Assembly: GCA_022564055.1 (NCBI GenBank)
Contig: JADFMD010000003.1
Location: 1-64,000 of the forward strand
Direction of reading: 5' to 3'
DNA: 64,000 bases
DNA from: Gemmatimonadota bacterium
Lineage (GTDB): Bacteria > Gemmatimonadota > Gemmatimonadetes > Longimicrobiales > Gaopeijiaceae
This document shows positions 4,125 through 48,854 of the stretch, in pieces. The stretch's first letter is position 1. The number at the start of each line of letters is the position of its first letter. Below the pieces are notes generated by a model. The model searched no databases. It had not been told where the DNA came from and was given only the letters and a program-made list of their open reading frames with translations. The position numbers were made by a program, and so were the translations under genes.

Positions 4125-6710
4125 ATGGAGGGGGCTGGAAACAACGTAATCGAGATCGTTGGGGCCACGGTAAGCCTTCTTCTCGTGGCCACCGGGGTCA
4201 TGGCCATTTCCAAGCGGATCAGAATTCCGTTTACCGCGGCGAGGATTACGATTCCGTTCACGGTCGGGCTGGTCGTGACGGGTATGGTGCTGGCTCAGGT
4301 TGCCCGCTTCGGCGGGGAGGCTTTGGCGCCGATCGCCAACCTCCGTATCTCCGCGGACGTGGCCTTCTTCGTCCTCCTGCCTACGCTGATCTTCCAGGCC
4401 GCGTTCAAGCTCGATGCCCGAGCCCTCCGTGAAAACCTGGCGGGAGTGCTGTTGTTGGCGGTGCCGGGCCTGCTCCTCTCCACGGGGTTGATCGCCGGGG
4501 TGCTGGTCCTCGCCACGCCGCTCGGGTGGTTCGAAGCGCTCCTGCTGGGTTCGATTTTGAGCGCCACCGAGCCCGTGGTGATCGGGCTCCTCCGTCGACT
4601 CGGTGCTCCAAAGAGGCTCACGATCCTCGTGGAGGGGGAAAGTCTCTTCAACGACGCGACGGCTATCGTGCTGGCACGCATTTTGACCGGGATGCTTCTG
4701 GCCGGGGCCGTGGCAGGTGGGACGGGCGTGCTCCAGGGAGGCGTCGAGTTCATTGTCGTCTTCTTCGGCGGTTTGTTGGTCGGATGGGCTCTTGCGGTGC
4801 TCGTTGGGATGATTTTGGGGCGAGTCGATTCCGACGCATTCATCGAGGTCACGCTGACCACGGTGCTGGCGTATGTGTCGTTCCTGGTCGCGGAAGTAGT
4901 GCTCGGCGTGAGCGGTGTGATGGCGACGGTGGTCGCCGGCATGCTCATCGGTGGCTGGGGGAAGGCGAAAATCTCCCCATCGATTGCCGATTATCTGGAG
5001 CGTTTTTGGGGATACATGGCGATGGTGGCCAACGCGCTCATTTTCCTCATGGTGGGGCTCGCGGTGGATCTGGGGGCCCTGGCCAACAGCTTTCCGTTGC
5101 TGCTCGTGGTCATCGCTGCGATGCTCGCCTCACGAGCGGTCGTCATATTCGGCCTCGTGCCTGGAATCGGTCGGCTTCCCGAGTACGATCCCATAAGCCG
5201 CGGTCATCAGACGGTGATGTTCTGGGGCGGACTTCGGGGCGCCTTGGCGCTCGCCGTTGCTCTGAGCCTTCCCGACTTCGGGCGAGAGGTGGCGGGGTTC
5301 GGTGATCTCAATCAGCTCATCGTGGCACTCGTCATGGGTGCCGTGTTATTCAGCCTGTTGGCACAGGGGCTCACCATGGAAGCTCTGGTGAGAAGGTTCA
5401 AGTTACACGTCCCGCCGCTCTCGGACCGCCTGGCCCGCCTCGAAGGACTCCTCTCCGCCAAACAGCGGACGTTGGAGCGGATCCCGGAGTTGGAGACGGG
5501 TGGACTTTTCTCGCGTCGCATCTCGAAAGAGCTGCGAGCCCAATGTGAAGCCAAGATCGAAGCGATGAAGAATGAGCTCCAGCAGCTCAGAGGAGAGCAC
5601 CTCGATATCGAGGAGGAACGGAGACTTCTTTATCTTCGGTGCTTCGGTGAGGAGAACATCTTGTACTACGAGATGTTCACCCACGGGCATTTGACGGAAC
5701 GAACCTACCGCAGTTTGGTCCACTCCGTCGATCTCCAGACCGAAGCGATGCGACACCACGGCAGTCTGCCCGAGTTCACGCTTTACCCTCCTACCGGCGA
5801 ACGCCTGGAGAGCACCGTCCATCGGGTCCTGGCACGCTTGCCGGGTGGTCGCCGGTGGGCAGAGACGCTACGGGCGGAGCGGACCGCTCGCGATTATGAG
5901 GTGGCTTGGGCCCGTTCGCAGGTGAGCCTCCAGGTATCGCTTCGAATGGAGGAGTCGGAGGACGCCGAGTCGACCCGACCCGAAGTCGTGGCAGAACTCC
6001 GGGCCACCTATCGCTATTGGCAGGACCAGGCCCGGGACCGGGTCGATGAGAGCGCCGAGCAGTTTCCAGAGTTCGTGAACTCGGCTCAGGAGCGTTTGGC
6101 CAGGAGAATGGTCCTGCACGCAGAGTGCGAGGCCATTGAAGAAAGAGCTCGCGCTGGGATGATTCCCGAGGGAGTGGCGGAGGCCATGCTGGAGGAGCTG
6201 GCTGCGGATCTCCGGGGAATCCGGGCGAGCCAGCCGGAAAAACTGACGGTCGGCCCTGAGGACCTCCTGAAAAAGGTGCCGTTCTTCTCCAATATGCCCG
6301 AGGAGGAGTTTTCGGTGGTGACCGCCAAACTTCGGTCGAGAACCGTACCGGCCGGTGAGACCATCGTCCGCCAGAACGGATCGGATTCCTCATTGTTCTT
6401 GGTGGCGCGGGGCGTGATCAGGGTGTCCCGGCAGGACGGCGGCGTGAGTAGAGACCTGGCAACACTGTTCGCCGGGGAATTCTTCGGTGAGATGGCGTTG
6501 CTCCACGGCACCCGACGGACGGCCACGTGCCGGGCCTTGACCCCATGCGCCCTCTATGAGCTGCGGAGAGAAGATATCGACGTAGTGCGGAGCGTCTGCC
6601 CCGAGATCCAACGCGCCCTGGAAGAGGCGGACCGACGCCGGCGAGCCACCCTCCGGATGTCGGCCGTGGGGAGCGTCGCCCACTTGACCACACCGAGCTC
6701 TCGCACTTAA
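4125..6710 (+). CDS. CPA1-type Na+/H+ antiporter with C-terminal cyclic-nucleotide-binding domain
   Basis: 861 aa; multi-TM, GESLFNDATAIVL motif, C-terminal FGEMALLHGTRRTAT cNMP-binding cassette. Confidence 0.88.
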   Translation: MEGAGNNVIEIVGATVSLLLVATGVMAISKRIRIPFTAARITIPFTVGLVVTGMVLAQVARFGGEALAPIANLRISADVAFFVLLPTLIFQAAFKLDARALRENLAGVLLLAVPGLLLSTGLIAGVLVLATPLGWFEALLLGSILSATEPVVIGLLRRLGAPKRLTILVEGESLFNDATAIVLARILTGMLLAGAVAGGTGVLQGGVEFIVVFFGGLLVGWALAVLVGMILGRVDSDAFIEVTLTTVLAYVSFLVAEVVLGVSGVMATVVAGMLIGGWGKAKISPSIADYLERFWGYMAMVANALIFLMVGLAVDLGALANSFPLLLVVIAAMLASRAVVIFGLVPGIGRLPEYDPISRGHQTVMFWGGLRGALALAVALSLPDFGREVAGFGDLNQLIVALVMGAVLFSLLAQGLTMEALVRRFKLHVPPLSDRLARLEGLLSAKQRTLERIPELETGGLFSRRISKELRAQCEAKIEAMKNELQQLRGEHLDIEEERRLLYLRCFGEENILYYEMFTHGHLTERTYRSLVHSVDLQTEAMRHHGSLPEFTLYPPTGERLESTVHRVLARLPGGRRWAETLRAERTARDYEVAWARSQVSLQVSLRMEESEDAESTRPEVVAELRATYRYWQDQARDRVDESAEQFPEFVNSAQERLARRMVLHAECEAIEERARAGMIPEGVAEAMLEELAADLRGIRASQPEKLTVGPEDLLKKVPFFSNMPEEEFSVVTAKLRSRTVPAGETIVRQNGSDSSLFLVARGVIRVSRQDGGVSRDLATLFAGEFFGEMALLHGTRRTATCRALTPCALYELRREDIDVVRSVCPEIQRALEEADRRRRATLRMSAVGSVAHLTTPSSRT

Positions 6711-6712
6711 CC
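6684..6712 (+). promoter_or_regulatory. Candidate sigma70-like promoter for the his leader
   Basis: TTGACC, 17 nt, TTAACC; weak -10. Predicted start lies at about 6719-6720, i.e. at the leader ATG. Confidence 0.35.
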
Positions 6713-6719
6713 TATTCTC

Positions 6720-6794
6720 ATGAACACTTCAACTCGACATCATCGGCACCATCATCATCCGCTCCCGAGCGGCTGGCTGGGGCTGTGCGCCTGA
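6720..6794 (+). CDS. His-rich leader peptide of the his operon (hisL-like)
   Basis: ATG AAC ACT TCA ACT CGA CAT CAT CGG CAC CAT CAT CAT CCG ... TGA = MNTSTRHHRHHHHPLPSGWLGLCA; 6 His in 7 consecutive codons just upstream of hisG. Confidence 0.85.
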   Translation: MNTSTRHHRHHHHPLPSGWLGLCA

Positions 6795-6828
6795 GTTGAA
6801 GATCGTCTGACGACCTGAACGCACCTAC

Positions 6829-6855
6829 CGCCGGCCTCCGAGGTCGGCGTTTTTT
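6829..6855 (+). terminator. Intrinsic terminator/attenuator of the his operon
   Basis: CGCCGGCCT-CCG-AGGTCGGCG (9 bp with one G.U) followed by TTTTTT, upstream of hisG. Confidence 0.85.
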
Positions 6856-6902
6856 ATTTTATGCCCTCCTCGGAGTTCCGGCGCACATCACGGAGCTCCT
6901 TC

Positions 6903-7796
6903 ATGACGCAAGACCACAAGAACCGAGACGACGCCGGCGCGGATACGCTGCGTCTCGCCCTGCCCAAGGGCCGCATGCAAGAGGCCGTGCTCGCGCTGCT
7001 GGCCGACGCCGGCATCCGCGTGACACCCACAGCCCGTGGGTACCGCCCCGCAGTGTCGCTTTCCAACTGCGAGGCGAAGATCCTGAAACACCAGAACATC
7101 GTCGAGATGCTCGAGCTCGGGAGCCGAGACGTGGGATTCGCCGGCGCGGATTGGGTGGAGGAGTTGGATGCCGACGTCGTGGAGCTTCTGGATACCGGGC
7201 TCGATCCCGTGAGCGTGGTGGCCGCGGCACCCATAGGCCTCTTCGACCGACTCGACGAGATCGGACGGCCACTCGTGGTCGCCTCCGAGTACGAAAAGCT
7301 CACGAAGGCGTGGATCGCAAGCCGAGAACTGAACGCGGAATTCGTGCGTTCCTTTGGCGCCACCGAGGTTTTCCCGCCCGAGGACGCGGACGTGATCGTC
7401 GACAACACGGCCACCGGCAGCACGCTGCGTGCGAACGACCTCGAGATCGTCGACACCGTGCTCCAGTCGTCGACCCGCCTGTACGCGAGTCCCCATGCCA
7501 TGAAGAACGCTGCCAAGCGGGAGCGAATCGAGGATCTGAGCCTGCTTCTCCGCAGCGTGCTCGACGCTCGAAAGCGTGTCATGATCGAGGTGAATGCCCC
7601 CGAGGATCGGCTCAAGGAAGTCGTTTCGCTCCTGCCGTGTATGCGCGAGGCCACGGTGGCCCCACTCTTCGGAGACAGCGGATACGCCGTCAGGGCAGCC
7701 GTGTTGAGGGAGAAGCTTCCCGAGATCATCCCGGCCATCAAGTCCGTGGGCGCTACCGACGTCGTGGTCACCTCCATCTCCCAGATCGTCCCATGA
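6903..7796 (+). CDS. hisG: ATP phosphoribosyltransferase (long form)
   Basis: LRLALPKGRMQEAVLALL...; start at 6903 preferred over 6861 because of GGAG upstream. Confidence 0.93.
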   Translation: MTQDHKNRDDAGADTLRLALPKGRMQEAVLALLADAGIRVTPTARGYRPAVSLSNCEAKILKHQNIVEMLELGSRDVGFAGADWVEELDADVVELLDTGLDPVSVVAAAPIGLFDRLDEIGRPLVVASEYEKLTKAWIASRELNAEFVRSFGATEVFPPEDADVIVDNTATGSTLRANDLEIVDTVLQSSTRLYASPHAMKNAAKRERIEDLSLLLRSVLDARKRVMIEVNAPEDRLKEVVSLLPCMREATVAPLFGDSGYAVRAAVLREKLPEIIPAIKSVGATDVVVTSISQIVP

Positions 7797-9538
7797 CCGA
7801 CCGAGGATCACCGCTCCCTTCGACGTGGATTCCCCGCGATCTCTACCAGGGACCGGCCCAGCCGGCGCCCGGGGTGCTCAAGCTCGACGGAAACGAGGGT
7901 AATCCTCCACCACGCAGGCTCCTCGAGGATCTGGCGGCGGCGGACCTGTCCCTGGTCCGGGATTATCCCGACGCCCGTCCCCTGGAGTCCCAGATCGCCG
8001 AACGCCTCGGCGTGGATCCGGCACGGGTCGTCGTGACCGCCGGTGCCGACGAGGCGCTGGATCGGATGTTCCGGGCCTATCTGGCGCCTGGTCGACGCCT
8101 GGTGCTTCCGGTTCCGGCGTTCGAAATGATGTACCGCTTCGCAGCCGTGGCCGGTGGGGAGATCCAGCCCGTGCCATGGACGGGCGCCTTCCCGACCGAC
8201 GACGTGATCGCCGCGCTAGCCGGGGACGTGTCACTCGTCGTGATGATCTCGCCCAACAACCCGACGGGGTGCACGGCCACCGCAAGCGATCTCGAACGCG
8301 TCGCCGAGGCGGCGTCCAAGGTGGACTGCGGAACGGCCTTCGGGGCGATGGTCGTCCTCGACCACGCCTACGTGGAGTACTCGGATCAGGATCTCACGTC
8401 CGTGGCTCAGAATTTCGACAACGTCGTGACCGTGCGCACGTTTTCGAAGGCGTGGGGATTGGCGGGCTGCCGCGTGGGCTACGCCGTTGCGGCCCCCGAA
8501 GTCGCCACCCTCCTCCGTAACGTGGGGAGCCCTTTCCCGGTCGCGGGACTCTCGTTGGCCGCGGTCCGGGCACAGCTGAAGACGGGCGAAGCGGCGTTGG
8601 GGGAGCACGTACTGGCCGTTCGAGCGGGACGGGACCGCCTCACGGAAACGCTCGACCGACTGGGCGTCGAAACCAGCCCGTCTCAGGGTAATTTCGTGTT
8701 CGGTGACTTCGGCGCGCGCTGCGATTTCGTTCTCAACGGACTGAACGCGTTGGGGGTGCGTGTGCGACGATTCCCACACCGCCCCGAGATCGCAGACTCC
8801 CTGCGGATCACCGTGCCGGACCACGCGGAGCCGCTGAACCGGCTTCTCGAGGCCCTGGAAATCTGCCTCGCGCCCCAGGCCCTCCTCTTCGACCTGGACG
8901 GGGTGATCGCGGACGTGGAGGAGTCGTATCGGCGGTGCGTACTCGAAACGGCCGGCACTTTTGGGGTGGAGGTCACGCGAGAGGAGTTGGCCACCCTGGT
9001 CCTCGCGGGTGACGCCAACAACGACTGGGTGTTGACGCAACGCATCCTCGCCGGGCGCGGCGTCGAGGCGTCGCTCGACGCTGTTACGGAAGCCTACCAG
9101 CAGGTCTACCTCGGCACGTCGACGTCACCGGGGCTACGGGAATCCGAACACCTCCTGGTGGCGCGTGACGTGCTTTCGGGTCTCGCAGACCGACTGCCAC
9201 TCGCCATCGTGACCGGGCGGCCCCGCGAGGAGGCCGAATGGTTCCTCGAGAGGGAAGGCCTGACAGACCTCTTCCAGGCCGTCGTTTGCATGGAGGACGG
9301 CCCGCTCAAGCCCGACCCGGCGCCGGTTCGCTCGGCCGCCTCCAGCCTCGGCGTGGAGCGCGCCTGGATGATAGGCGACACGCCCGACGACATCCGCGCC
9401 GCGGCGGCGGCGGGCGCCGTACCCATCGGCGTCGTAGCACCCGGACCCGACCCTGAGGCCAGTGCCATGGCCCTGCGCGAAGCGGGAGCCGCCACGGTAA
9501 TCGCCACAGTTGATGACCTGATGCAGCTGCTACCATGA
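7793..9538 (+). CDS. hisC: Histidinol-phosphate aminotransferase fused to a C-terminal HAD-family phosphatase
   Basis: ATGA overlap with hisG; N-terminal PLP aminotransferase (FSKAWGLAGCRVGYAV), C-terminal ALLFDLDGVIADVEESYRR ... AIVTGRPREEAEWFL ... WMIGDTPDDIRAAAAAG. The 7151 start in the ORF track is an artefact. Confidence 0.9.
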   Translation: MTDRGSPLPSTWIPRDLYQGPAQPAPGVLKLDGNEGNPPPRRLLEDLAAADLSLVRDYPDARPLESQIAERLGVDPARVVVTAGADEALDRMFRAYLAPGRRLVLPVPAFEMMYRFAAVAGGEIQPVPWTGAFPTDDVIAALAGDVSLVVMISPNNPTGCTATASDLERVAEAASKVDCGTAFGAMVVLDHAYVEYSDQDLTSVAQNFDNVVTVRTFSKAWGLAGCRVGYAVAAPEVATLLRNVGSPFPVAGLSLAAVRAQLKTGEAALGEHVLAVRAGRDRLTETLDRLGVETSPSQGNFVFGDFGARCDFVLNGLNALGVRVRRFPHRPEIADSLRITVPDHAEPLNRLLEALEICLAPQALLFDLDGVIADVEESYRRCVLETAGTFGVEVTREELATLVLAGDANNDWVLTQRILAGRGVEASLDAVTEAYQQVYLGTSTSPGLRESEHLLVARDVLSGLADRLPLAIVTGRPREEAEWFLEREGLTDLFQAVVCMEDGPLKPDPAPVRSAASSLGVERAWMIGDTPDDIRAAAAAGAVPIGVVAPGPDPEASAMALREAGAATVIATVDDLMQLLP

Positions 9539-9566: not shown

Positions 9567-10166
9567 ATGACTCCCCGAAATGCCACGATCGATCGCAAGA
9601 CCCGTGAGACCGAAATCAGCGTCACCCTCGAGCTGGACGGAACGGGCTCGTCGGATGTCCAGACGGGCATCGGCTTTCTCGACCACCTGCTCGACGCCCT
9701 CGCTCGCCACGGCCGATTCGACCTCGAGCTTCGCTGCAAGGGGGATCTTCAGATCGACGACCATCACACTGCAGAGGATTGCGGGCTGGCACTGGGCAGC
9801 GCCCTCCAGGAGGCGCTCGGCGACCGGGCGGGAATCACACGTTTCGGGTACGCCTACGCGCCCCTGGACGAGGCACTCGCGCGTGCGGTCGTGGACATCT
9901 CCGGGCGGCCCTTCGCTAGAATCGACCTGGGGCTCACGCGCGAGCGCCTGGGCGCCTTGTCGTGCGAGAACGTTCCGCATGTGCTGAGCTCCCTGGCCAC
10001 CGCGGCGGGCATCACCCTCCACGTCGACGTGATCAGGGGCGACAACGACCACCACCGCGCCGAGGCGGCCTTCAAGGCCGTGGCGCTCGCGCTCCGGGCG
10101 GCGGTGAGTGCGTCGGGCTTCGACGACGTCCCGTCCACGAAGGGCACGATCGGGGGCGTCGGGTGA
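9567..10166 (+). CDS. hisB: Imidazoleglycerol-phosphate dehydratase (monofunctional)
   Basis: 199 aa; GIGFLDHLLDALARHGRFDLELRCKGDLQIDDHHTAED. Confidence 0.96.
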   Translation: MTPRNATIDRKTRETEISVTLELDGTGSSDVQTGIGFLDHLLDALARHGRFDLELRCKGDLQIDDHHTAEDCGLALGSALQEALGDRAGITRFGYAYAPLDEALARAVVDISGRPFARIDLGLTRERLGALSCENVPHVLSSLATAAGITLHVDVIRGDNDHHRAEAAFKAVALALRAAVSASGFDDVPSTKGTIGGVG

Positions 10167-10221: not shown

Positions 10222-11727
10222 GTGAGCGATTCGACCACGGCGCCTGCGCCGACGTCCGAGGAGTACCGCGTTGCGATCATCGACTCGGGCGTGGCCAACC
10301 TCGCGGCCGTCGAGAGCGCTCTGAACGCCCTGGGCGTCGAGTATGCGATCACCGGGAATCCCAAGACGGTGCTCGAGGCAACCCACGCGGTTCTCCCAGG
10401 CGTAGGGCGGTTTTCGGCGGGCATGGAGACGCTTCGTCGCGATGGCCTCGACGAGGCAGTGCACGAGGTCCACGAACGAGGGACACCGCTCCTCGCCGTC
10501 TGCCTGGGCATGCAGATGCTCGGGGCCGGGAGTGACGAGAGCCCGGACACACCGGGACTCGGCATCGTGCCCGGCCGGTTCCAGCGGTTGCCCGACTCGG
10601 TGCGCGTACCCCACCTGGGGTGGAATCAGGTGCGCGCCGATGACGGCTCCGGTCTGCCGAGCGGTACCGCGGCCTTTGCCAACTCGTTCTACTTGCCGAA
10701 GCCACCGAGCGGGTGGTGTGCCGCGTGGACGACCCACGGAGCGACCTTCGTTTCGATGCTCGCCCAGGGCCGGACCCTCGCGTGCCAGTTCCACCCGGAG
10801 CTCTCCGGACCGTTCGGGATGGGGCTCATCCGGGACTGGCTCAGCGGGAAGCTTCCGGCGCGAGCCGGAGGACAGGCGGCTGAAGGCGGGAGATCGGCTG
10901 AAACCCCCACCGAGGGCGATGGCGGCCGCGGGGGCCCGGCCAAGGAGGAGGGCAAAGGCCGCACGGTGTGGCGCGAGGTTGCACCCCGCATCGTCCCCTG
11001 TCTCGATGTGAAGGACGGGAGGGTGGTGAAGGGCATCCGCTTCCAGAACCTCCGCGACGCCGGTGATCCCGCCGACCAGGCCGAAGAGTACGAACGCCAA
11101 GGGGCGGACGAGATCGTCATTCTCGACATCGGGGCCTCCCCCGAGGGGCGCGAAACGCAACGCGAAACGGTGCGCGCCGTGCGACGGCGCATCCACATCC
11201 CGCTCACGGTCGGCGGCGGCGTCCGAAGCGTGGACGACGCGCGGGGCCTCTTGGCGGCGGGCGCCGACAAGGTGAGCGTCAACACCGCCGCCGTCCGGGA
11301 TCCGAGCCTGCTGAAGCGGCTGAGCCAGGCGTTCGGCACACAGTGCGTGGTGTTGGCCATCGACGCACGCCGATTGGGCGACAGCTGGGACACCCTGGTT
11401 GTGGGCGGGAGGGAGGCGACCGGTATCGACGCGATCGAGTGGGGACGCGAGGGCGCGCGCCTCGGCGCCGGTGAGATCCTGCTCACGAGTTGGGACCGGG
11501 ACGGGACCCGCGCGGGCTGCGACGTGGAGTTGCTCGAGGCCATGCGTGAGGCGGTGGATGTGCCGGTCATCGCATCCGGCGGCATCGGCACACCGGACGA
11601 CGTGGCCGCGGCATTCCGAGCCGGTGCCAATGCGGTCTTGGCCGCATCGGTCTTTCATGATGGAGACCTCACGGTAGGGCAGATCAAGACTTACGTATCA
11701 GAGCAAGGACTGGCAGTGCGCCTATGA
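10222..11727 (+). CDS. hisHF: Imidazole glycerol phosphate synthase, HisH-HisF single-chain fusion
   Basis: GTG start at 10222; HisH class-I glutaminase (CLGMQMLG, HPELSG) then a linker and HisF (IVPCLDVKDGRVVKG...VLAIDARR). Confidence 0.92.
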   Translation: MSDSTTAPAPTSEEYRVAIIDSGVANLAAVESALNALGVEYAITGNPKTVLEATHAVLPGVGRFSAGMETLRRDGLDEAVHEVHERGTPLLAVCLGMQMLGAGSDESPDTPGLGIVPGRFQRLPDSVRVPHLGWNQVRADDGSGLPSGTAAFANSFYLPKPPSGWCAAWTTHGATFVSMLAQGRTLACQFHPELSGPFGMGLIRDWLSGKLPARAGGQAAEGGRSAETPTEGDGGRGGPAKEEGKGRTVWREVAPRIVPCLDVKDGRVVKGIRFQNLRDAGDPADQAEEYERQGADEIVILDIGASPEGRETQRETVRAVRRRIHIPLTVGGGVRSVDDARGLLAAGADKVSVNTAAVRDPSLLKRLSQAFGTQCVVLAIDARRLGDSWDTLVVGGREATGIDAIEWGREGARLGAGEILLTSWDRDGTRAGCDVELLEAMREAVDVPVIASGGIGTPDDVAAAFRAGANAVLAASVFHDGDLTVGQIKTYVSEQGLAVRL

Positions 11728-13130
11728 TCATTCCCAGCATCGACCTCATGGATGGACGCGCGGTTCAGCTGCGCCGAGGCAAGGAGTTCGTCCTCGACGG
11801 AGGCGATCCGTTCGAGCGGCTCGAGGAGTTCTCCGTGGCGGGCGAGGTGGCGGTCGTCGACTTGGACGCAGCCATGGGAAAGGGGTCCAATGCCGAGATC
11901 ATGCGCGAGTTGGTCCGGCAGGCACCCTGCCGCGTCGGTGGCGGAATCCGGGATATCGACACCGCTCTGGCCTGGCTGGATGTAGGGGCGGAGCACGTGG
12001 TCATCGGAACAGCAGCCTCCGTGGATTTCTGCTCCCAGTTACCGCGGGACCGGGTGATCGCCGCCGTCGACGCCGAGGCCGGAAGGGTGGTGGTGGAGGG
12101 TTGGCAAACCCAGACCGAGCACGGCGTGATCGATCGGATTAAAGAACTGACGCCGGTCGTGGGCGGCTTCCTGCTGACCCAGGTGGAGTATGAAGGGGGG
12201 ATGTCGGGGTGGAACGAAGATCTCGTCGAGGAGGCCGTTCAGGCCGCTGGCTCCGTGCGTATTACAGCGGCGGGAGGGATCACCACCGCCGAAGATGTAG
12301 GTCGGCTGGATCAACTGGGTGCCGACGCCCAGGTGGGGATGGCCCTCTATACGAACCGCATGAGCCTGGGCGAGGCGGTCGGCGCCCCCTTGGTCAAAGC
12401 GATCGACGGACGACTCTGGCCCACCGTCGTGTGCGATGAAGAGGGGCACGCCCTCGGGCTGGTGTGGAGCACACGGGAGAGCGTCGAGGCGGCGGTGGGG
12501 GAAAGGCGGGGAATCTACTGGTCCCGCTCCCGGGACTCGCTGTGGATCAAGGGCGAGACCTCCGGGGCCACCCAGGAGCTGCTTCGCGTGGAGTTGGACT
12601 GCGACCGCGACGCTCTCCGCTTCGTGGTTCGCCAGCACGGCTCCGGATTCTGCCACACGGGAACCCCGGGTTGCTGGCCGACCCCTTTTACGCTCTCCTC
12701 GCTCTCGGACGTCATCGCACGTCGTGGCCGGGAGGCACCGGAGGGGTCCGGGACGGCCAAACTCATGGGAGACCCCGCCCTTCTCGCGTCCAAGCTTCGG
12801 GAAGAGACGGAGGAACTCATCCAGGCGCTTCAGGCCGATGAGGCCGGATCCGGGGATGTGGAAAGCGACAACGCTCCGACGGAGGATTCTATGGAGCGGG
12901 CACATGACTCGAAGGAGCAGGCGCCGCAGCGGGCGAACGAAGTGATCCACGAAGCGGCCGACCTGCTCTATTTCACGCTTGTCGCGGCGGCGAGCCGCGG
13001 CGCCGGTGTCGACGCACTCCGCCGGGAGCTCGCTCGGCGCAGCCTCCGGGTGGGGCGGCGTCCGATGACGGCGAAGTCCGAAGTGGCTCAGTCCGACCAG
13101 GCCAAGTCCGACGACGGAAAGAATCCATGA
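11724..13130 (+). CDS. HisA-HisI-HisE trifunctional fusion
   Basis: 468 aa; HisA (MIIPSIDLMDGRAVQLRRG), HisI (YWSRSRDSLWIKGETSGATQELLRVELDCDRDALRFVVRQHGSGFCHTG), HisE (KLREETEELIQAL...NEVIHEAADLLYFTLVAAASRG). Confidence 0.9.
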   Translation: MIIPSIDLMDGRAVQLRRGKEFVLDGGDPFERLEEFSVAGEVAVVDLDAAMGKGSNAEIMRELVRQAPCRVGGGIRDIDTALAWLDVGAEHVVIGTAASVDFCSQLPRDRVIAAVDAEAGRVVVEGWQTQTEHGVIDRIKELTPVVGGFLLTQVEYEGGMSGWNEDLVEEAVQAAGSVRITAAGGITTAEDVGRLDQLGADAQVGMALYTNRMSLGEAVGAPLVKAIDGRLWPTVVCDEEGHALGLVWSTRESVEAAVGERRGIYWSRSRDSLWIKGETSGATQELLRVELDCDRDALRFVVRQHGSGFCHTGTPGCWPTPFTLSSLSDVIARRGREAPEGSGTAKLMGDPALLASKLREETEELIQALQADEAGSGDVESDNAPTEDSMERAHDSKEQAPQRANEVIHEAADLLYFTLVAAASRGAGVDALRRELARRSLRVGRRPMTAKSEVAQSDQAKSDDGKNP

Positions 13131-14395
13131 GCCAGCCACTTCTCCCTCGTCGCAGCGTCGAGGAGTTTCGAGCCCGGAACCGCGGTGGGGTGCCGCCAGA
13201 AATTCTTGAGGAGGCCGCGGTCATCGTGGAGGCCGTACGCTCCGGCGGCGAGGAGGCGCTGAGAGAATACGCCACCCGTTTCGAGGACTGTGCACCCGAC
13301 GCACCCCTCTATCTGACCCGGGAGACTCTGCAGGGCCGTTTGGATGAGCTCCCCGAAGACGAGCGGAACCGCCTCGAGAGGATCTGCGAGCGAATCCGAG
13401 CCTTCGCCCAGTCGCAGCTGGGGGCGCTCGCCCCGTTGGACACTCCGGTACCCGGTGGGCGAGCCGGCCACCGTATCGATCCGGTCGAGGCCGCGGGGTG
13501 CTACGCGCCGGGCGGCCGCTATCCCCTGCCCTCCTCGGTGCTCATGACCGTGGTCACCGCGAGGGCGGCCGGTGTGCGATCCGTGTGGGTCGCGAGCCCC
13601 CGGCCGGCCCCAATCACACTGGCGGCGGCGGCAGTAGCCGGTGCCGACGGCGTCCTGGTCGCGGGCGGAGCCCACGCGATCGCGGCTCTGGCGTTCGGGG
13701 TCGGCCCCATTCCGCCGAGCGATGTCGTGGTGGGGCCCGGAAACCTGTACGTGACCGCCGCGAAGCAACTGCTCGCCGGAGAGGTCCGGATCGACATGCT
13801 CGCCGGGCCCTCGGAGCTGGTGGTCATCGCCGACGCCGCAGCCAACCCCGCCTGGGTCGCGGCGGACCTATTGGCACAGGCTGAGCATGACCCCGATGCG
13901 TTGCCGATCCTGATCTCGCTCGACCCGGAGTTCCCCTCCCTGGTCGAGCGAGAAATCGAACGGCGGCTCGACGACCTGCCGACCGCGCCCACGGCAAGGG
14001 AAGCGCTCGCGAATGGCGGGGTGATCGTGCGCGAAACCGAGGAGGAGGCCTGTCTAGCTTGCGACGACATCGCGCCCGAGCACGTGCAGCTCTCGGTGTC
14101 GGACCCCGAAACCTGGCCGGAACGACTCCATCATTACGGCGCCCTCTTCATCGGTGAGCGCGCCGCAGAGGTGTTCGGGGACTATGGGGTCGGGCCCAAC
14201 CATGTCCTTCCCACCGGGGGGACCGCCAGAGCGCGAGGCGGGCTTTCCGTCCTGGACTTTCTTCGAGTGCGGACATGGATCCGCGCGGATTCGGATCTCG
14301 ATCCCGACCTGATCGAGGATGTCGCGTGGTTCGCCAGACAGGAGGGGCTCGAGGCCCACGCCAGAGCCGCGGAGATCAGGCGCCGCGAAGGGTAG
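13127..14395 (+). CDS. hisD: Histidinol dehydrogenase
   Basis: 422 aa; GGRYPLPSSVLMTVVTARAAGV, AGPSELVVIAD, GPNHVLPTGGTAR. Confidence 0.96.
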   Translation: MSQPLLPRRSVEEFRARNRGGVPPEILEEAAVIVEAVRSGGEEALREYATRFEDCAPDAPLYLTRETLQGRLDELPEDERNRLERICERIRAFAQSQLGALAPLDTPVPGGRAGHRIDPVEAAGCYAPGGRYPLPSSVLMTVVTARAAGVRSVWVASPRPAPITLAAAAVAGADGVLVAGGAHAIAALAFGVGPIPPSDVVVGPGNLYVTAAKQLLAGEVRIDMLAGPSELVVIADAAANPAWVAADLLAQAEHDPDALPILISLDPEFPSLVEREIERRLDDLPTAPTAREALANGGVIVRETEEEACLACDDIAPEHVQLSVSDPETWPERLHHYGALFIGERAAEVFGDYGVGPNHVLPTGGTARARGGLSVLDFLRVRTWIRADSDLDPDLIEDVAWFARQEGLEAHARAAEIRRREG

Positions 14396-47757: not shown

Positions 47758-47805
47758 GGCCTTGAAGTGCCCGACATCGATAGGGTACTATCGGAGGCCT
47801 TTTTT
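47758..47805 (+). terminator. Terminator-like hairpin in the 5' region of aroF
   Basis: GGCCT...CGATAG-ggta-CTATCG...AGGCC followed by TTTTTT. Confidence 0.5.
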
Positions 47806-47840
47806 ATCGTCGCAGAGCGAACAACTCGAGACACACGAAC

Positions 47841-48854
47841 ATGATCATCATCACCCGACACGACGTCACCGACGAAGAGCTGGACCATATCCGGGAGCGG
47901 GTGGAGGCCCTCGGGCTTCAGACCCACCTTTCGCGCGGAAAACACCGTACTGTGATTGGATGTATCGGAGACGAGGAGCTTCTGGCCGGCATCCCACTCC
48001 GTTCGATTCCGGGGGTCGAGGCCGTTCACACGGTCATGAAACCATACAAGTTGGCGAACCTCCAGTTTGCCGCCGAACCGACGATAGTTCCGCTGGGCAG
48101 CGCTACCGTCGGCGATACGGCCATCGCTGTCGTGGCGGGCCCTTGTTCGGTGGAGAGCCTTGAAATGCTCTCCGCGACGGCTCAGCGGGTCCAGAAGGCG
48201 GGAGCTGTAGGGCTTCGCGGCGGTGCGTTCAAGCCGCGCAGTTCACCCTATTCCTTCGGCGGGCTGGGCGAGGATGGCCTCAAGATGCTCGCCGATGTCC
48301 GTGCCGAGACCGGCCTCCCGATCGTGACCGAGGTCATGGACACACGCCAGGCGGACTTGGTCGCCGAATACGCCGACGTGCTCCAGATCGGAGCGCGAAA
48401 CATGCAGAATTTTTCCCTTCTCACCGAGGTCGGGAGACTCCACCGGCCGATCCTGCTCAAACGCGGAATGGCGGCCACCGTGGAGGACCTGCTCCTTGCG
48501 GCGGAGTACATCATGAAACAGGGGAACCAAAACGTCATCCTTTGTGAACGGGGTATCCGAACTTTTTCCGACGCGACCCGAAATACTTTCGACCTGGCCG
48601 CCATCCCGGTCCTCAAGAAGGAGACGCACCTTCCGGTGATCGCCGACCCGAGCCATGCCGCTGGCCGGCGTGATCTCGTGGCGGCGCTTTCATACGCGGC
48701 GGTAGCCGCCGGAGCAGACGGGTTGCTGATCGAGGTGCATCCGGACCCGGAGCAGGCAGTCTCGGATGGAGATCAATCGCTTACGTTCGACGAATTCGAC
48801 ACTCTTATGGCGGGCCTGGAGCCCGTTGCCGCCGCAGTGGGAAGGAGCCTCTGA
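47841..48854 (+). CDS. aroF: 3-deoxy-7-phosphoheptulonate synthase (DAHP synthase, AroF/AroG beta type)
   Basis: [66 protein letters not shown]. Confidence 0.95.

Follow-up and report, generated by a model that had tools for sequence, protein, structure and literature searches.

Attenuators that depend on a leader peptide were known, according to a survey of 2010, only from Proteobacteria and Actinobacteria, to which it added the Firmicutes, with histidine leader peptides at hisS/hisZ of bacilli (PMC2965389). Further his attenuators are placed in the Bacillus cereus group, Peptostreptococcaceae and Erysipelotrichales by another article (PMC9413887). In Streptomyces lividans the leader peptides trpL1, ilvL and leuL were reported as transcribed leaderless, and in trpL1 and ilvL the leader is followed by hairpins and a U-rich stretch (PMC8079986); a leaderless attenuator is thus not new in principle, having been published for the trp, ilv and leu genes of that species. 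For the 5' UTR of hisDCB in C. glutamicum, which is devoid of a His-coding leader ORF, a T-box or another riboswitch was proposed (PMC3896937).

Here, I describe a leader ahead of the his operon in a draft genome (3.38 Mb) of an uncultured member of the Gemmatimonadota, within a stretch of DNA of 64,000 nucleotides that was analysed as a whole and is called the window below. The reading I favour, at a probability of about 0.88, is that translating ribosomes control the his operon by transcription attenuation and that the leader transcript involved is leaderless. The His codons, the terminator, the alternative pairings, the conserved promoter geometry and the comparative support were obtained by computation; the elements are collected in Table 1.

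Table 1. Elements of the his leader, its operon and the adjoining gene (positions in the window)
Feature	Position	Strand	Remarks
Na+/H+ exchanger with cNMP-binding domain	4125-6710	+	directly upstream of the leader
Promoter-like pair	6684-6713	+	TTGACC 6684-6689, 18 nt, TAACCT 6708-6713, then 6 nt to the leader ATG
hisL leader peptide ORF	6720-6794	+	ATG at 6720, TGA at 6792-6794; 24 codons, MNTSTRHHRHHHHPLPSGWLGLCA followed by the stop; position and His run kept in relatives
Enclosing helix, 5' arm	6727-6736	+	CUUCAACUCG; pairs with 6792-6801 (fold)
Putative regulatory His codons	6738-6758	+	CAT CAT CGG CAC CAT CAT CAT
Hairpin 1:2	6759-6772	+	CCGCU/AGCGG, abutting the last His codon on its 3' side; fold and covariation
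Antiterminator strand 2	6771-6789	+	GGCUGGC, GG, GUGCG
Enclosing helix, 3' arm	6792-6801	+	UGAGUUGAAG; overlaps the leader stop codon
Antiterminator strand 3	6820-6836	+	CGCAC ... CC GCCGGCC; its 3' part is the terminator 5' arm
Intrinsic terminator 3:4	6829-6855	+	CGCCGGCCT (6829-6837) CCG AGGTCGGCG (6841-6849) T6 (6850-6855); scan and fold
hisG (ATP phosphoribosyltransferase)	6903-7796	+	first operon gene; PF01634, PF08029 and TIGR00070 above cut-off; GGAG 6892-6895
hisC-like aminotransferase fused to HAD phosphatase domain	7793-9538	+	PF00155, PF13419; TIGR01141 under cut-off
hisB (imidazoleglycerol-phosphate dehydratase)	9567-10166	+	PF00475; NF002111 above cut-off
hisH-hisF fusion	10228-11727	+	start codon approximate; TIGR01855 and TIGR00735 above cut-offs
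hisA-hisI-hisE fusion	11724-13130	+	PF00977, PF01502, PF01503
hisD (histidinol dehydrogenase)	13127-14395	+	PF00815

The leader ORF, its terminator and the operon

The genes from hisG to hisD look like one operon. It is unusually compact, with hisH-hisF and hisA-hisI-hisE fusions (10228-13130) and hisD in last place. The HAD part of the fused aminotransferase scores 136.8 bits against TIGR01548, just under the cut-off of 140.2, and is a candidate for the operon's histidinol-phosphate phosphatase.

Ahead of this complete set of his genes lies an ORF rich in codons for the amino acid that they produce: histidine is encoded at 6738-6743 and 6747-6758, that is, by 6 of 7 codons (five CAT, one CAC), the exception being CGG. 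The preliminary description had pointed to six His codons in seven and to a stop at 6794, and sequence and translation agree with it to the base. A run with 6 or more His among 7 codons occurs once in the 64 kb of the window, scanned in six frames, and not at all in 20 Markov-1 simulations of 64 kb; a weaker run, 5 His among 7 codons, lies near 47833 (47790-47860). Codon choice in the leaders found before hisG (see below) differs from that in the hisG genes, with 313 CAT and 306 CAC in the former versus 32 and 110 in the latter (odds ratio 3.5, Fisher p 7e-10); the excess of CAT could stem from slower decoding or from keeping the His run free of stable structure.

Between the leader ORF and hisG stands an intrinsic terminator, whose two arms and T6 tract stood in the preliminary description and were recovered by a terminator scan as well as by folding. 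Of the 107 leaders of the first set, 94 have such a stem, at less than -8 kcal/mol and followed by a T-rich tail, the terminators lying mostly 20-41 nt beyond the leader stop, and among 34 aligned family members 94.3% of the cells of the terminator 3:4 are paired, with 6 pairs changed on both sides.

Promoter-like pair and predicted alternative pairings of the leader RNA

No Shine-Dalgarno sequence precedes the window's leader ATG, and the putative -10 element ends 6 nt ahead of it, within the 6-9 nt or so by which, together with a missing Shine-Dalgarno, a leaderless start was recognised. In a bacterial promoter of this form transcription starts some 6-8 nt past the -10 box, so that the 5' end of the transcript would fall at or next to the AUG; the position of the promoter-like pair strongly suggests a start at or next to 6720, and the leader mRNA is probably leaderless. 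Both hexamers are imperfect, and a stricter promoter scan returned nothing in the window's leader stretch. The feature had at first been taken to begin at the ATG; the elements then placed within it stand, and its left end has to be moved upstream, since the promoter-like pair begins at 6684.

The same geometry recurs among the relatives. A TTGAC starts between -41 and -33, counted from the leader ATG, in 82 of 107 leaders, where shuffles average 0.7, and TTG[AC]C lies at -45..-34 in 115 of 140. TA-rich -10 elements are concentrated at -16 to -11 in the set of 107; in the set of 140 the 3' end of the best -10 hexamer mostly lies 6-9 nt short of the start codon, the distribution of spacers over this set being skewed towards 17 by the scoring used. 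SD-like GGAG, GAGG or AGGA precedes 5 of 107 leaders as against 55 of 89 hisG starts, a count inflated by the several candidate hisG starts allowed. Start codons and promoter hexamers were assigned by rule, the leader start being the ATG nearest the His run, a rule blind to the upstream sequence.

Structures were predicted with 37 C parameters and without kinetics; for the ribosome states, the footprint was masked and the RNA folded up to the terminator loop. The complementarity noticed beforehand between GGCTGGC (6771-6777) and GCCGGCC (6830-6836) holds over 7 bp, with one G-U. Taken alone, the window's 2:3 duplex with this short arm is no better than shuffles (z -0.4), and a longer antiterminator was therefore sought, and found, by masked folding: it joins 6771-6777/6830-6836, 6779-6780/6828-6829 and 6785-6789/6820-6824, plus an inner helix. 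The pairing first proposed for the antiterminator is thus retained and its extent revised, the 7 bp being the base of a longer stem. The core of the antiterminator has a probability of 0.98 when the ribosome is stalled at the last His codon, against 0.02 without ribosome and 0.00 with the ribosome at the stop; for GUGCG 6785-6789 with CGCAC 6820-6824 the values are 0.97, 0.05 and 0.00. In these models the antiterminator excludes the terminator and is freed by the stalled ribosome, and the idea put forward in the preliminary description, that a ribosome stalled at the His codons frees the antiterminator and one at the stop masks it, is borne out by the contrast of 0.98 with 0.00. Once the full terminator is included, it wins at equilibrium in every ribosome state, as expected for a kinetic switch.

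Hairpin 1:2 has a probability of 0.96 both without ribosome and with the ribosome at the stop, and of 0.00 with the ribosome on the last His codon (masked folding). It starts at or right behind the last His codon. In the 34 aligned family members 85.5% of its cells are paired and 4 pairs show changes in both partners, more than any shuffle reached; a segment for it, taken at a constant 36 nt, is locally no more stable than shuffles over all leaders, for which reason the hairpin rests on covariation and on the window's fold. It is a possible protector or pause hairpin. The enclosing helix, an addition to the pairings of the preliminary description, encloses the leader in the model when the ribosome is absent and leaves the terminator free; it has counterparts in loci L002-L004 and none clear in L033; its signal across the phylum is modest (mean z -0.97, 24 of 94 at 5%) and strongest in the window's genus.

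From these elements the following switch may be drawn. Transcription would begin at 6720 or within a few bases of it, and a 70S ribosome would start directly on the 5'-terminal AUG. When charged tRNA-His is ample, the ribosome would reach the stop at 6792-6794 and cover or release strand 2; the antiterminator would not form, and the terminator at 6829-6855 would stop transcription. When His-tRNA is scarce, the ribosome would stall on codons 7-13, covering arm 1 of the hairpin (6759-6763) and freeing strand 2 (6771-6789), which would then pair with 6820-6836, the terminator 5' arm included, and RNA polymerase would continue into hisG-hisD. In a leader free of ribosomes, the helix 6727-6736/6792-6801 and hairpin 1:2 would hold strand 2, and termination would for that reason be the default. 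The transcription start, the stalling of the ribosome, the response to histidine and the read-through are the steps that I infer.

Folded alone, the 151-nt leader is only modestly more stable than its shuffles (z -1.6), and the case consequently rests on the comparison between genomes. Folding the window to a consensus with its four nearest relatives gives z -3.63, with 94% of cells paired and none of 100 column shuffles as good. Over 94 leaders, the segment from the edge of the stalled ribosome to just 5' of the terminator 3' arm has a mean z of -1.76 versus shuffles, and upstream control segments give -0.08 in the same test. Covariation of 2:3 is weak within the large family alignment (34 members), because the 2:3 core is nearly invariant there; paired changes on both sides are seen in L026 (A-U to G-C) and L150 (C-G to A-U). 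Between lineages the 2:3 sequences are wholly different and the pairing is retained, as in GGCUGGC/GCCGGCC of the window and GACGGGC/GCCCGUC of much of the family; a record labelled Melainabacteria still pairs through GGAGC/GCUCC with CUGA/UCAG. When partners are swapped, the ranks come to 0.28 on average, against 0.5 if there were no coadaptation, a figure that the relatedness of the loci keeps from being a clean probability. A crude switch score exceeds 0.4 in 14 of 94 leaders versus 2% of controls (p 0.003), a modest separation. A more general score, for an arm sequestered upstream, was set aside for its poor discrimination, because a GC-rich arm always pairs somewhere in a truncated RNA.

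Recurrence and descent of the leader

HisG loci were drawn from a family search (85 of 121 genomes matched), a phylum search (211 of 298) and a named genome collection (74 loci), and a leader was called where the DNA upstream of hisG encodes 4 or more His within 8 codons. The first set yielded 107 loci with homologous leaders before hisG, which the preliminary description suggested looking for, and the total came to 140 distinct loci, most of them in Gemmatimonadota, all counts in this account being inflated by related sequences; the doubt raised in that description, that the His codons might not be conserved in relatives, is allayed by the recurrence of the His run. In the window's own family (f1) the leader stands in 57 of 79 loci, and in the other families of the phylum sample it is present in 2 of 2 loci (f2), 17 of 18 (f4), 22 of 24 (f5) and 1 of 1 (f8), and scarce or absent in f7 (1 of 11), f6 (0 of 1) and f11 (0 of 5). 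The design appears, on this sampling of sequences, common to most of the sampled families of Gemmatimonadota.

One genus of the window's family, g2, is without the leader in every sampled member. The loci that lack the leader, of the Candidatus Palauibacter type and of genus g2, are L059-L061, L065-L068, L071 and L073; and L105, L108-L111, L113, L116, L117 and L119. In the window's genus, a simple scan for W-rich and ILV-rich ORFs upstream of trpE and ilvB yielded no convincing Trp or branched-chain leader.

By HisG, the window stands closest, among named records, to MAGs labelled Longimicrobiales and Gemmatimonadetes, in keeping with its assignment to the Gemmatimonadota. Other named loci that bear a leader carry the depositors' labels Acidimicrobiia, Spirochaetes, Phycisphaerae / Planctomycetota, Melainabacteria, Bacteroidetes and others; some of these labels may be wrong, for the HisG proteins are unusually alike. 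On a HisG tree of 100 loci the presence of the leader requires 13 changes versus 24 expected with shuffled labels, from which it follows that the leader is clustered and was lost (or gained) several times.

Within the window's family hisG is of two types, with ~60-100% and ~35% identity to the query and a very long branch between them. Both (L026-L030; L105-L153) occur with His leaders and with the leaderless promoter geometry, and their terminator cores differ, GCCGGC in one and GCGGCCCGUC in the other. Either the operon was replaced and the leader region stayed, or the leader region originated on more than one occasion. That the leaders form an ancient leaderless class of his attenuators, spread over Gemmatimonadota and several other phyla and kept or re-made across the two hisG lineages, to which the window's genus adds a translational layer by way of a hairpin around the Shine-Dalgarno sequence, is a tentative and rather doubtful extension.

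Past the terminator, two hairpins are predicted both for the window and for its closest relatives: one joins the terminator 3' arm to sequence downstream, by 6840-6843/6868-6871 and 6846-6850/6861-6865, and a second, 6872-6880/6891-6899, contains the hisG Shine-Dalgarno. These hairpins at 6840-6899 may form a second, translational layer or protect the read-through RNA.

Competing readings and known systems

The same attenuator could lie behind an ordinary 5' UTR, or be read into from the upstream antiporter gene, its leader being translated by re-initiation or from a weak start without a Shine-Dalgarno. Coupled re-initiation is possible because the upstream gene, on the same strand, ends with a stop at 6708-6710, a mere 9 nt from the leader ATG; the leaderless start is itself read from sequence. 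Such an arrangement is nonetheless unlikely in view of a TTGAC held at a fixed distance together with a TA-rich -10 in 82 of 107 leaders (115 of 140 with the looser motif), in many genera. Quite improbable is a control exerted chiefly on the translation of hisG, with its Shine-Dalgarno held in 6872-6880/6891-6899 and the terminator in a minor or secondary role: the terminator is strong, ends in T6 and is kept in 94 of 107 leaders, and the hairpin in question, although folding of two stretches predicts it, in one or both, for each of the five closest sequences, was examined in those five only; the terminator 3' arm may indeed be drawn into a pairing just downstream (6840-6850 with 6861-6871).

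Poly-His peptides bind metal, and the ORF ends before the terminator, as would suit a true small protein, for instance a His-rich metal-binding peptide, whose own gene the terminator closes. This is a very improbable account of an ORF whose residues beyond the His run vary freely between lineages, the RNA pairings, the promoter geometry and the place before hisG being retained. Least credible, with practically no probability left to it, is a His-coding repeat standing by chance ahead of an ordinary terminator: the z of only -1.6 for the single-sequence fold would accord with it, but no such stretch arose in 20 simulated windows, and the recurrence of His leaders upstream of hisG in relatives, at 140 distinct loci, refutes it.

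The attenuator on a leaderless transcript is thus retained, and it remains to set it beside known systems. No relevant Rfam match reaches the gathering score anywhere in the window, and RF00514 (His_leader) is unlisted for 6650-6910 even at E <= 10, so the leader is not filed under that family; a His T-box gave no covariance match in the whole window. The best Rfam match for the leader, anti-hemB, was dismissed at 19.7 bits versus a cut-off of 49.5. In the literature no leaderless his attenuator was found and none in Gemmatimonadota, nor any paper that links Gemmatimonadetes with attenuator and leader peptide or leaderless with Gemmatimonas, nor an earlier description of RNA regulation for Gemmatimonadota his operons, a provisional result, the subscription journals lying mostly outside the search. 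The window's leader is best regarded as a real attenuator that follows a known principle, and its leaderless his form and its occurrence in Gemmatimonadota are, provisionally, apparently unreported.

Few phyla have so far had attenuators of the leader-peptide kind described, and the 140 leaders, most of them from Gemmatimonadota, add a well-supported set, from which a covariance model could be seeded and which offers a candidate regulatory part responsive to histidine. In classical attenuators the coupling relies on a pause hairpin together with a Shine-Dalgarno. The leaders raise the question of how a ribosome that would have to bind the 5'-terminal AUG the moment it emerges keeps step with RNA polymerase.

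With the hisDCB operon of C. glutamicum, itself rich in leaderless mRNAs like others of its phylum, the locus has in common an RNA element ahead of his genes. With the leaders of Firmicutes it shares, as far as the accessible texts go, a His-rich leader peptide, a terminator and an antiterminator outside Proteobacteria; those leaders are from Firmicutes only, the texts do not describe a leaderless start, and in their available parts one leaves Gemmatimonadota and Acidimicrobiia unmentioned (PMC9413887) and the other Gemmatimonadetes (PMC2965389). A leaderless leader peptide is probably shared by the window with S. lividans, where the leaders are for Trp, branched-chain and other amino acids, with no His leader among the 8 (PMC8079986).

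By its anatomy the window's leader works like the enterobacterial hisL (RF00514), with which it has in common the run of His codons, hairpin 1:2, antiterminator 2:3, terminator 3:4 and hisG as first gene. The label "classical" given to it at the outset is therefore apt for the principle of attenuation and not for the enteric form, since the leader looks leaderless and the Shine-Dalgarno is absent; this absence, a promoter that abuts the start codon and a strong enclosing helix across the stop codon are the window's own.
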